The translations under genes were made by a program, and so were the position numbers. The notes below the pieces were generated by a model. It worked only from the letters and a program-made list of their open reading frames with translations, had not been told where the DNA came from and did no database searches. Of a DNA stretch of 51,084 nt, positions 23,193 through 51,084 are shown one piece after another. This stretch comes from Actinomycetota bacterium (GTDB taxonomy: Bacteria > Actinomycetota > Aquicultoria > Subteraquimicrobiales > UBA9087), in contig JASEEZ010000013.1 in assembly GCA_030019215.1 (NCBI GenBank), positions 1 to 51,084 on the forward strand, written 5' to 3'. Each line of letters opens with the position of its first letter. The first letter of the stretch is position 1.

Positions 23193-23413
23193 CGTTCCCC
23201 CGATGTAACATCGGGGTCACTCGATAGCTTATGGCCCGCTCACTGCCGTTCGCTCGATAGCAAATGGCTCGTTCGCTTTGCTCACTCGATAGCTTATGGC
23301 CCGCTCACTAACGTTCGCTCGATAGCTAATAGCCTTAGCCATCAGACATCCTTCGACTCCGCTCAGGATAAATCAGCCATAGGCCATCAGTCATAGGCCA
23401 TCAGCCATCTGCT
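23193..23413. repeat. Mosaic word repeats in the glyQ 5' leader
   Basis: Between the T-box terminator and glyQ, about 220 nt are built of repeated words such as ATGGCCCGCTCACT, CGTTCGCTCGATAGC, AGCCATCAG and AGGCCATCAG. There is a CCCCGATGTAACATCGGGG hairpin (about 23199-23217) and a CCTTCGACTCCGCTCAGGA copy (about 23349-23367). The block is closely related to 38632-38755 upstream of lepA. It would be transcribed as part of the glyQS leader. Confidence 0.8.
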
Positions 23414-23690
23414 AAATAAAAATCCTCTCACCCATAGCGTATACGCCAGGGACGAGAGGTTTCCCGTGGTTCCACCCTGATTCCCCCCGATGGACATCGG
23501 GGGGCACTCAACTAAAGTGAGCTTTACTCCCCCGCCTTCGGCCTACCTGTCGGCAAACAGGCAAGGTTTCCTCTCACGGCTCGGAAGCGCCCTTCGCCAA
23601 GAACAAGACCGAGCTCTCACCCTCCCCGGCTCGCTTAGCTTGCCAGCTTGACTACTCTTCTTCCTCATCGCCAAAGATATGGATTTCGAA
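23414..23690 (-). promoter_or_regulatory. Glycine T-box riboswitch of glyQS
   Basis: On the minus strand a Stem I begins near 23670 with GATGAGGAAGAAGAGTAGT and has a distal loop with GGGTGAGAGC. The specifier region is GAAGGGCGC (about 23587-23595), where either GGC or GGG reads glycine. The canonical T-box AGGGTGGAACCACGGG is at 23463-23478. A terminator hairpin (CCTCTCG...CGAGAGG-like stem, 23423-23459) follows, with an A/T tail. Uncharged tRNA-Gly should favour antitermination. Between Stem I and the T-box lies a CCCCCCGATG/CATCGGGGGG hairpin (23486-23507) of the dispersed family. Confidence 0.9.
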
Positions 23691-47042: not shown

Positions 47043-47954
47043 GTGGAGCTGAAGAAAGCCAAAATAATACTCAATCCCGCGGCCAACCACGGCGAAACGG
47101 GCAAGCTGGCGGGAAAGATGGGGGAACTATTCTCAGGAAAGCTCGATTTCGACCTCCAATTAACCGAGGGACCTAAGCACGCCATCGAGATCGCTAGAGA
47201 TCTCCTCGGCTATGATTTGGTTATCGCCGTCGGTGGTGATGGAACAGCCCACGAGGTCGTCAACGGCCTAACGCTCAGCAACAATAAAGAGACGGCTCTG
47301 GGGCTTTTGCCCACCGGGTCCGGAAATGATTTCAGACGCGCCCTGGGCATCTCCAGAAATCTACAAGAGGCCGCTCGCCAGATACTTGAAGGAAAAGAAA
47401 AATTGATAGATCTGGGAATGGTCAATGGCGTCTACTACGCCAACTCGCTGGGAATAGGCTTCGACGCCAAGGTGGCCCACACAGCGAACAAGATAAAAGA
47501 CGAGGTTAAAAGGGCAGGGATGCCACTTTATCTCACCGCTCTCTTTCGCATCCTGTTCACCGACTATCGTTGCTTCAACGTCTCCATCAAGATCAATGCC
47601 TCCGATTGGATACACAAAACCGTCACCGTGGTCGCAGTCAACAACGGCCTGAGTTACGGTGGGGGCTTCCTGGTAACCCCAAAGGCTCTCAACAATGATG
47701 GATTTCTCGATCTCTGCTTGGTAGATGAACTCTCTCCGGCACAGATCATACCGAGACTACCCTTCGTCATAGCCGGCAGGCACGAGTGGATGCGTCAAGT
47801 TCACACCCAACGCGTTAAGAGGCTGGTCTTAAGATCGGAGGAGGAACTCCCCGCCCACCTGGATGGAGAATTGATGACGGGGAAAAACTTTCTGGTAGAA
47901 AGCATTCCCATTGCCCTAAAAGTCATCGTTCCACCAACAGATGAGGAACTATGA
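47043..47954 (+). CDS. Diacylglycerol/sphingosine kinase-like lipid kinase (YegS/DagK family)
   Basis: The 303-residue protein has the catalytic signature [15 protein letters not shown], and [19 protein letters not shown] precedes it. [17 protein letters not shown] follows as in DagK/YegS. It phosphorylates diacylglycerol or another lipid in phospholipid turnover. The GTG at 47043 has AAGGAGG 6 nt upstream and is preferred over an upstream ATG at 47016. It is convergent with leuS, with the last bases of the two genes overlapping. Confidence 0.92.
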
Positions 47955-50417
47955 AACAACCACATTGACCAGCTTGCCGGGAACCACGATCACCTTAGCT
48001 ATCCGCTTTCCCGCGGTGTACTTCTTGACCTTTTCAGAAGAGAGAGCAACCTTCTCCATCTCCTCTCCACTGATGTCGGCGGGGACCGAAATTCTGTCCC
48101 GCACCTTTCCGTTAACCTGAACCACCAGGATGATCTCCTCAGCCTTAGCCAGCATTTCATCGTAGGAGGGCCAGGGTTGGAGATAGATGCTCTCTTTGCC
48201 TCCTATCTTTTCCCAGAGCTCCTCACAGATGTGAGGAGCAAAAGGGGAGAGAAGAAGAATCAATTTCTCAGTGAGCTTCTCCAAAAGTTCGCCATTTCGA
48301 GCCGATCTATCCTTACCCTCGTTATACTTAGAGTTCGCGTTAACCAACTCCATAACGGCACTGATGGCAGTGTTGAAGTCGAAGCGTTCCACATCCTCGG
48401 TTACTCTCTTGACGGTGCGGTGGATCATCCTCCGCAAATCCCTATCCAGTTCGTCCAGAGAAAGGGATTTCCCCTCCGCAAAAGAGGACATATTCTCGTG
48501 AACAACCCTCCACACCCTATTCAAAAACCTGAAACAACCCTCCACTCCTTGATCGCTCCATTCCAGCTCCCTTTCGGGTGGAGCGGCGAAGAGAATGAAC
48601 AACCTGGCCGTGTCCGCCCCATATTTATCGATGATGTAGCCCGGTTCGACGACATTGCCCTTGGATTTGGACATCTTCGCCCCATCCTTGACCACCATAC
48701 CCTGGGTAAGAAGATTGGTGAAGGGCTCGCCCGCCGTACACAAACCCATATCGTGCATCACCTTGGTGAAAAAGCGAGCGTAGAGGAGATGCATCACCGC
48801 GTGCTCGATTCCCCCGATGTACTGGTCGACAGGCATCCAGTAGTCGGCCGCCTCCTTGGTGAAAGGCATCCCGCTCTCATGAGGGCTGGTGTACCTCAAG
48901 AAATACCAGGAAGAGCAGGTGAAGGTATCCATGGTATCCGTCTCTCGCCTGGCGGGCCCAGAACACCTGGGACAGGCGGTATTGACAAACTCCTCGACAG
49001 TTGTCAGGGGAGAGATGCCTTTCTTTCCAAATTCCACATCCTGCGGCAGAAGAACGGGTAGATCCTTCTCGGGAACGGGGACCACTCCACACCTTTCGCA
49101 ATAGATTACGGGAATTGGATTTCCCCAGTAACGCTGCCTTGAAATAAGCCAGTCCCTCAATCGATAATTGATAGCGAAGTTTCCCTTCCCCTGCTCTCTC
49201 AGGAACTCTGTCACAGCTTTGACGCCCTCAACACTAGGCATACCGCTAAATCTACCCGAATTCGCCATCGTCCCCTCACCGATGTAGGCTTCCTTCATCG
49301 TAGCCGCAGCGAGGGTCTGTCCATCCGGCTGGATGACCACCTTTATAGGAATATCGTACTTCCTGGCGAATTCAAAATCCCTCTGATCATGGGCGGGAAC
49401 GGCCATGACCGCTCCCGTTCCATATTCCATGAGGACGTAGTCGGCAAGCCAGATGGGTATCCTTTCCCCATTGACCGGATTGATGACATAAGCCCCGGTG
49501 AAACAACCGTTCTTTTCTATCTCAACCGAGGTGCGATCGATCTCCGTCTCCGCAGCGACCTTCTTCCTAAACTCCTCGACCTCTTCTCTATAAAAGGTAC
49601 CCTTGATGATCTCGTCGACGAGAGGATGCTCCGGCGCTAGAAGGAAAAAGGTCGCACCAAAGAGGGTATCGGGCCTGGTGGTAAAGACCTTGATGGTCTT
49701 TCCATCCTCCAGAGCAAAATCGACCATCGCTCCCTCACTCCGGCCGATCCAATTCTGCTGCATCACCTTCACCCTCTCCGGCCAACCGATGAGCGCCTCC
49801 AAATCGTCGAGGAGGGATTGGGCATATTCGGTGATCCTGAAAAACCACTGCTCGAACTCTCTCTTCTCCACTGCGCTGTCACACCGCCAGCAAAGACCCC
49901 CTTTAGCCTGCTCATTAGCCAGAACGGTCTCACAAGCAGGACACCAGTTGACAGCAGCTTTCTTGCGATAAACCAAACCTCTCTCCATGAACTTCAAGAA
50001 CAGCCACTGCCCCCACCTGTAGTATTCGGGATCGCAGGTGTTTATCTCCCGGCCCCAATCGTAACTGATGCCCAACGTCTTGAGTTGATGGCGCATCTTG
50101 ATAATGTTGTCATGGGTCCACTTCCTGGGGTGAATACCATGTTCGATCGCCGCATTTTCGGCGGGCAGACCAAAGGCATCATAGCCAATGGGGTGAAGGA
50201 CATTATAACCACGCATCCTATTGTACCTGGCAATGACATCCCCAATGGCATAGTTTCTAACGTGGCCCATGTGGAGTTCCCCTGAAGGATAGGGAAACAT
50301 CTCCAGGATATATCTCTTCTCCCGATGGGGATCCTCGAAAACCTTAAAGAGCTCAGTCTCCTCCCACTTCTTCTGCCACTTCTTCTCGATTTCGGCAAAT
50401 TTGTATCTACTCGCCAT
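47949..50417 (-). CDS. leuS: Leucyl-tRNA synthetase
   Basis: This class Ia synthetase charges tRNA-Leu. The 822-residue protein has the HIGH-type motif [15 protein letters not shown], the zinc Cys pairs CPAC and CWRC, and an editing domain with [14 protein letters not shown] and [25 protein letters not shown] and an anticodon-binding C-terminus follow. I trimmed the start to ATG 50417, where GGAGGAGGG lies 4-5 nt upstream. Expression should be controlled by the leucine T-box leader in front of it, which carries a tRNA-Ala gene inside. Confidence 0.97.
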
Positions 50418-50430
50418 AAATCCCTCCTCC

Positions 50431-50485
50431 ACAAAAACAATCCTTCGTCCCTAGGGACGAAGGATTATCTCCGCGGTACCACCCT
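50431..50485 (-). promoter_or_regulatory. Leucine T-box: antiterminator and terminator of leuS
   Basis: The T-box sequence AGGGTGGTACCGCGG (50471-50485, minus strand) is followed by a perfect 14-bp self-complementary terminator (AATCCTTCGTCCCT and its complement, 50439-50466) and GTTTTTGT. Uncharged tRNA-Leu bound to the T-box would stabilise the antiterminator. The matching Stem I lies about 290 nt upstream beyond a tRNA gene. Confidence 0.9.
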
Positions 50486-50536
50486 GATTAGTGACTCCAA
50501 CTCAAAAATTAATGGACCTAACGGGACACTATCTTT

Positions 50537-50562
50537 TTGTCCTTCAACTCCGCTCAGGACAT
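50537..50562. repeat. CCTTCAACTCCGCTCAGGAC repeat inside the leuS leader
   Basis: One copy of the window's CTTCGACTCCGCTCAGGA family, able to form a small GTCCT/AGGAC stem, sits between tRNA-Ala and the T-box antiterminator. The leader therefore carries a dispersed repeat as well as the tRNA. Confidence 0.65.
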
Positions 50563-50652
50563 TCGACTCGTTATAACCCTGTTAATAAATAGAAAGCTCT
50601 GTGATTAAAGTGGCCGAAGACCATGAGTGAGGAGCAAAAGCGACAAGTCGAA

Positions 50653-50727
50653 TGGTGGAGATGGAGGGGATTGAACCCTCGACCTCCTCCACGCCAAGGA
50701 GGCGCTCTCCCACTGAGCTACATCCCC
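50653..50727 (-). tRNA. tRNA-Ala (anticodon GGC), inside the leuS T-box leader
   Basis: A full cloverleaf is seen: acceptor GGGGATG/CATCTCC, D arm GCTC-AGTGGGA-GAGC, anticodon stem CCTCC/GGAGG with loop TTGGCGT (anticodon GGC), T arm GAGGG-TTCAATC-CCCTC. Discriminator A is followed by an encoded CCA. It lies between the T-box Stem I (50775-50912) and the antiterminator (50431-50485) on the same strand. I see no promoter in the ~45 nt between Stem I and the tRNA. Confidence 0.93.
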
Positions 50728-50774
50728 ACGATGAATACAAGCCACTCGCTCTCAGCAGTGTAACGGCCGCCACA

Positions 50775-50912
50775 CGTATCGACTACTTTCTGCCCCGCCG
50801 TTGGCAAGGTAAACTTCACCGATAAGCTCCGAGGCGAGTTCAACGGTTACGGCGTCGGTTCCCAGCAACCACCGACTCTCTTGAACCGATCCCGCTTACT
50901 ACTCCTCATCAC
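50775..50912 (-). promoter_or_regulatory. Leucine T-box: Stem I with CTC specifier
   Basis: The minus strand begins GATGAGGAGTAGT, then AGAGAG and the distal hairpin TCGGT-GGTTGCTGGGA-ACCGA typical of T-box Stem I. Pairing CGGTT/AACCG closes the middle. The specifier loop GAACTCGCC presents CTC (50836-50838), a leucine codon, matching the downstream leuS. A CCGTTACAC segment resembling the T-box Stem III region follows before the tRNA-Ala gene. Confidence 0.85.
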
Positions 50913-50937
50913 AGCCCAAATATTATCTTCAGAAGAA

Positions 50938-50966
50938 ATTATAGGAGGTCATCCCTCCAAAGTCAA
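50938..50966 (-). promoter_or_regulatory. Promoter of the leuS leader / tRNA-Ala
   Basis: On the minus strand TTGACT (50961-50966) and TATAAT (50938-50943) are 17 nt apart, with transcription expected to start near 50931, just before Stem I. Confidence 0.8.
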
Positions 50967-51084
50967 ATTGCTGACTCCCTGCTCCCCATACCGACTGTCG
51001 ACTGGTTTTCTAAGTTTGTAGACGACTTGGTCAATGAGCCAAGCCCGTCCTGAGCAAAGTCGAAGAATTGGTTTGTCAAGTTTG
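50967..51084. other. Intergenic window end
   Basis: No gene is seen. At about 51040-51062 there is one more copy of the GTCCTGAGC...GTCGAAG repeat family in reverse orientation. Confidence 0.5.

Follow-up and report, generated by a model that had tools for sequence, protein, structure and literature searches.

A tRNA-Ala(GGC) gene in the Stem III loop of a predicted leuS T-box leader, an architecture recurring in several bacterial phyla

In a T-box leader, an uncharged tRNA bound by Stem I and by the UGGU bulge stabilises the antiterminator. What, then, is to be made of a leader in which a complete gene for a different tRNA lies between these two elements? Such a leader precedes leuS in the window, by which we mean the whole stretch of 51,084 nucleotides of actinomycetotal DNA that was analysed. 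An earlier note, made from the sequence alone, had described one odd locus in which a promoter, a T-box with a CTC specifier, a tRNA-Ala(GGC) with its CCA, an antiterminator, a terminator and leuS follow one another on a single strand. Every one of these parts was located, all on the minus strand (Table 1). The locus is real, but it is not unique, the architecture being widespread across several phyla.

Table 1. Features of the leuS leader in the window.
Feature	Position	Strand	Basis
Promoter-like site TTGACT-N17-TATAAT	50938..50966	−	Consensus scan, 11/12 matches
T-box Stem I (approximate limits)	50826..50915	−	RF00230 alignment
Specifier codon CUC (Leu), context GAACUCGCC	50836..50838	−	RF00230 alignment and sequence
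Stem II and IIA/B region (approximate limits)	50755..50825	−	RF00230 alignment
Stem III, 5′ strand AGUGGCUU	50739..50746	−	Minimum-energy fold; sibling genome G001 pairs alike, with a G-U to G-C change
tRNA-Ala(GGC), CCA encoded, in the Stem III loop	50653..50727	−	ARAGORN; RF00005, 68.6 bits
Window-specific DNA without counterpart in the sibling leader L009	50502..50652	−	Comparison with L009; repeat search
Stem III, 3′ strand GAGUCACU, then AA	50490..50497	−	Minimum-energy fold
T-box sequence AGGGUGGUACCGCGG, antiterminator 5′ part, UGGU bulge	50471..50485	−	RF00230 alignment, sequence
Intrinsic terminator AAUCCUUCGUCCC-UAG-GGACGAAGGAUU and U tract	50432..50466	−	Sequence and fold
leuS, ATG at 50417 behind GGAGGAGGG	47949..50417	−	ORF; start in the ORF list is GTG 50432

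With a long insert allowed, the RF00230 model aligns from its first to its last position, Stem I included. The match at 50921-50450 covers all 219 model positions with 89.7 bits (E 8e-20) and an insert of 241 nt, a score about 3 bits under the gathering score of 93. In this alignment, Stem I has the AG bulge and the distal-loop motifs, and the specifier fits leuS; the genome also encodes a tRNA-Leu(GAG), which fits the CUC specifier. The purine motif, with GAG ahead of Stem III and AA behind it, is present in the window and in most relatives. The terminator, a 13-bp hairpin with a U tract, overlaps the 3′ part of the antiterminator, so that sequence and fold make the two mutually exclusive; a simple terminator scan did not list it. 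Minimum-energy folds of the window's leader and of the sibling's, each taken alone, contain Stem III, the cloverleaf and the terminator. As for transcription, the earlier note had seen no separate promoter for the tRNA, and the consensus scan of 50400-51084 bears this out, with the sigma-70-like site at 50966-50938 as the sole promoter-like site in that interval. To judge by the sequence, one promoter is common to tRNA-Ala and leuS. A match to permuted tmRNA at the position of the tRNA was rejected, with 20 bits against a cut-off of 47 and an overlap with tRNA-Ala.

An assembly join had been named as something that a comparison of leuS leaders in relatives might reveal. It is ruled out: the other genome of the genus (G001) has the identical order on its own contig, and the order is repeated in other families and other phyla. 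The LeuS products of the two siblings are 90% identical. The sibling's T-box, at 112.4 bits, lies above the gathering score, as does that of G013 (108 bits), and about 30 nt separate its tRNA CCA from the GGTGG of the T-box. Because the sibling shares the order, along with about 96 further loci in other phyla, chance occurrence is excluded. The six other T-box matches of the genome have no tRNA inside or nearby. One of these six is in the window, at 23445-23677 on the minus strand. It is a plain T-box whose specifier is GGC-like and whose Stem III is the usual short hairpin, and it lies upstream of ORFs reading as glyQ and glyS.

One property of the leader is peculiar to the window: some 150 nt of additional DNA separate the tRNA from the 3′ strand of Stem III. 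Here lie a REP-like unit (50558-50541) and a 12-nt inverted repeat (50654-50643 / 50571-50560), one arm of which begins at the CCA. The REP-like unit, CCTGAGCRRAGTYGAAGR, has three copies in the window (23350-23367, 50541-50558 and 51049-51066), where none is expected by chance, and it partly recurs on another contig. One copy is thus within the extra DNA of the leader, and another is near the T-box at 23445. The extra 150 nt or so probably explain both the large insert and the lower T-box score. With that much DNA added to the Stem III loop and a score 3 bits under the gathering score, the window's own copy of the leader could be impaired.

How widely does the arrangement occur? A scan of 84,980 species genomes with a pattern that requires a tRNA T-arm and a T-box no more than about 72 nt apart found at least 120 loci. 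The window itself was missed by the pattern because of its insert. Among the matches listed, ARAGORN places a tRNA-Ala(GGC) exactly at this position in 96; in a 97th, L065 from Thermosyntropha, the sequence ends at the locus edge. Also among the matches listed are five tRNAs of other kinds (Ser, Gln twice, Glu and Asn) near T-box-like letters, which are tentatively taken for chance hits. The composite leaders among the matches listed come from Chloroflexota, Bacillota and Actinomycetota, and from metagenome-assembled genomes (MAGs) labelled Atribacteria, Coprothermobacterota, Caldisericota and Armatimonadota; named hosts include Syntrophomonas wolfei, S. palmitatica, Thermosyntropha lipolytica, Desulfofundulus and Desulfotruncus, as well as Dictyobacter, Ktedonobacter, Tengunoibacter, Sphaerobacter and Caldilineales. 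In evenly drawn samples, the pattern matched 38 of 301 genomes in the phylum of Tengunoibacter, about 45 of 200 in the phylum of Desulfotruncus and 6 of 397 in Actinomycetota, the last all in the class of the source genome. Read in reverse, the same pattern gave a single match overall. The prevalence figures count pattern matches, nearly all of those listed carrying a tRNA-Ala 3′ half, and they are lower bounds.

In 85 of the 97 loci listed, leuS lies downstream, in 11 of these at more than 700 nt, and in several of the distant cases an intervening ORF resembles, by eye, a branched-chain aminotransferase or an acyl-CoA ligase. The first ORF behind the nested leader is not leuS at L050, L061, L086, L118, L128 and L147, nor at L055, L080, L136, L138 and L140. 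These first ORFs resemble an acyl-CoA ligase (in Desulfotomaculum-like genomes) or a branched-chain aminotransferase (in Chloroflexota and others), and leuS usually comes next where the contig is long enough. Two further observations concern the sensor. Stem I is apparently much shortened at L073, L099 and L107, in MAGs called Coprothermobacterota and Caldisericota, and at L055 there is a tRNA-like sequence just upstream of Stem I, such that two tRNA genes may flank the sensor. On a LeuS tree, both the Chloroflexota and the Bacillota/Actinomycetota branches bear nested leaders, interspersed with others that are plain, tRNA-only or empty. Since nested loci are over-represented in the sample and L248, a row labelled 'tRNA only', is a nested leader with a variant T-box, the tree was not used to weigh one old origin with losses against transfer.

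The nested gene is always the same. It is tRNA-Ala with anticodon GGC, and the alanine identity elements G3:U70 and A73 are present in 96 of the 96 listed loci, and likewise in the window by sequence. CCA is encoded in 73 of these tRNAs and absent from the other 23. No Ala-GGC gene besides the nested one was found in the window's assembly (94% complete, 45 tRNA hits), and a GGC-specific pattern finds exactly one Ala-GGC copy in 14 of 16 genomes with a nested locus. On the T-box side, the CUC specifier context is matched by pattern in 91 of the 96 listed loci; of the remaining five, four have CUC on visual inspection and the fifth is truncated where its contig ends. Both parts, T-box and tRNA, look functional.

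The earlier note had placed the tRNA between Stem I and the antiterminator. That position holds and can now be refined, since the tRNA is specifically in the loop of Stem III. In most of the listed loci, GAGNG and a short segment precede the tRNA, which is followed by a stretch complementary to that segment, then by AA and the T-box. With true partners, the best helix around the tRNA scores 15.35; exchanging partners among loci lowers the score to 10.6 (sd 0.27). In motif-anchored columns, 66% of the cells are standard pairs in register, against 33–45% after a slide of one or two positions. For column pairs 2 and 3 of Stem III, none of 2000 shuffles comes up to the observed value; for pairs 1, 4, 5 and 6, it is attained in 6, 5, 2 and 28 shuffles, respectively. 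These counts ignore the relatedness of the loci and are not probabilities. A simple search found no helix reaching a score of 12 in 24 of the 96 listed loci. Linker lengths around the nested tRNA vary widely, with a median of 5 nt from Stem III to the 5′ side of the acceptor stem. The plain leuS T-boxes of Bacillota have a short-loop hairpin at the place of the tRNA. Because the flanks pair and covary, the folds agree and plain T-boxes carry a short-loop hairpin at this very place, the comparative sequences indicate that the tRNA occupies the loop of Stem III, a helix that covaries around it across phyla.

We therefore come back to how such a leader would operate. Probably, it is a transcription-attenuating leuS T-box that senses tRNA-Leu(GAG), with the cell's tRNA-Ala(GGC) gene in the loop of its Stem III. 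The earlier note had offered three readings; the best fit is the one that makes the tRNA fold a linker within a riboswitch that remains functional, given that the Stem III helix covaries across phyla. Since a tRNA fold brings its two ends next to each other, the cloverleaf would form a self-contained side domain on Stem III, and Stem I would be joined to the antiterminator much as it is in other T-boxes. Uncharged tRNA-Leu would stabilise the antiterminator and let the polymerase proceed into leuS; without it, transcription would stop at the terminator. The tRNA lies upstream of that terminator, in terminated and read-through transcripts alike, and each initiation should therefore yield tRNA-Ala, whatever the switch decides. 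The earlier proposal that tRNA-Ala supply is linked to leucine starvation is disfavoured on the same ground. The T-box terminator would double as the terminator of the tRNA gene. We infer an order of events in which RNase P and 3′ processing release tRNA-Ala after the co-transcriptional decision, because the switch needs an uncut leader to work, and in which the two products are put out separately. The pairing of the tRNA flanks in Stem III, often near the acceptor stem, may slow RNase P until the decision has been taken.

It is tempting to go further and make processing part of the control, cleavage by RNase P and at the 3′ end parting the sensor from the switch and thereby freeing tRNA-Leu or setting the stability of the leuS mRNA. 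Maturation of the nested tRNA would inevitably sever Stem I from the antiterminator, the tRNA keeps its place inside the leader from phylum to phylum, and its own flanks are paired in Stem III. Against this, the plain leuS T-boxes of Bacillota manage with no nested tRNA, and the widely varying linkers do not suggest a tuned cleavage device, so that we regard such a role as unlikely. In its fullest form, the leader would be a self-dismantling switch: a closed Stem III would bar RNase P until the decision, and its opening would then let RNase P and 3′ nucleases cut, freeing captured tRNA-Leu, setting leuS mRNA stability and tying the supply of the sole tRNA-Ala(GGC) to the activity of the leuS promoter. 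To this version, we give the same slim chance.

The class of the source genome, Aquicultoria, raises another doubt, namely whether the T-box may be dead and the locus by now a tRNA-Ala gene with a terminator ahead of leuS. Among 36 genomes of the class, intact nested leaders are present in G000, G001, G012, G017 and G013, and also in G025, where the leader is cut by a contig end. In one family (f3), the T-box degenerates although the tRNA inside it hardly changes: the T-box score is 92.5 bits in G012 and 90.3 bits in G017 but 45 bits in G021, where the T-box is altered to AGGUGGUAUUGCG; the antiterminator is absent from G024:C65, and only the tRNA and the terminator are left in G005. By locus, L011 and L012 are intact, L013 and L010 are degenerate and L014 retains only the terminator. 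At L011, L013 and L010, the specifier position upstream of leuS has UUU (G012 and G021) or UUC (G024:C65) in place of CUC, either because it has decayed or because the specifier loop is read in another frame. In more distant Actinomycetota, tRNA-Ala adjoins leuS without any T-box. Taken with the decay in this family, this means that the linkage of tRNA-Ala to leuS outlives the switch, and some lineages can do without the switch, given that they lose the T-box and keep the tRNA. A second leuS of G024 (L043, G024:C130) has a nested leader almost identical to those of MAGs called Atribacteria; it is probably a contamination of G024, and otherwise a transfer.

Both the decay series and the T-box-less neighbours thus speak for a relic, as does the window's T-box score just under the RF00230 cut-off. 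Nevertheless, about 90 listed loci retain CUC and a covarying Stem III, the sibling's T-box stands above the gathering score, and the specifier, T-box sequence and terminator of the window are all intact, all of which makes a dead T-box very improbable here. That the nested tRNA-Ala could be a ligand in cis, its ACCA end pairing with the UGGU bulge so that alanine sets the switch, is hardly credible: the letters could pair, the bulge being UGGU and the discriminator an A in every listed tRNA, but T-boxes require a free tRNA 3′ end and the nested tRNA carries a 3′ extension in the transcript, and cis binding is rejected in view of the tRNAs that lack an encoded CCA and of the Leu specifier.

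If the leader is a working T-box with tRNA-Ala in its Stem III loop, as we think probable, one transcript seems to be both the sensor and the source of an essential tRNA, with that tRNA and the supply of LeuRS under a single promoter. Stem III would then tolerate a structured domain of 75 nt, and the locus would offer a natural system for the timing of RNase P relative to a co-transcriptional riboswitch decision. A tRNA gene inside an RNA that senses another tRNA is apparently undescribed, yet it is found in roughly one in eight and one in five of the genomes sampled in two large groups; pipelines that leave out long leaders, or that annotate the tRNA as an independent gene, can overlook the composite. 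In the open-access full texts searched, no account of a tRNA lying within a T-box was found; the nearest case there was tRNA-Sec nested in selB. The parts consulted of a 2008 survey (PMC2494555) and of TBDB (PMC7778990) make no mention of a nested tRNA.

We class the leader as a T-box variant because the defining features that can be tested are there, the score cut-off being reached only in relatives; the nested gene is the new part. Like a transcriptional leuS T-box (RF00230), it has Stem I, a CUC specifier, the Stem II region, the purine motif, Stem III, the T-box sequence, a terminator and leuS, but where the former has a short Stem III loop, a complete tRNA-Ala(GGC) gene is found here. Mixed tRNA-mRNA operons, such as the tRNA genes upstream of tufB in Escherichia coli, likewise place a tRNA and a protein gene on one primary transcript that is cut by RNase P, although there the tRNA precedes the gene outside any regulatory RNA. 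In the thrS T-box leader of Bacillus subtilis, cleavage by a general endoribonuclease has been shown to raise mRNA stability. The two leaders are alike in RNA cleavage between sensor and terminator, which in the present case is only predicted from the presence of the tRNA. Finally, a tRNA-Sec gene nested in selB of Alphaproteobacteria (PMC8124441) also lies inside another translation gene; the host there is protein-coding, whereas here it is a riboswitch that would sense a different tRNA.
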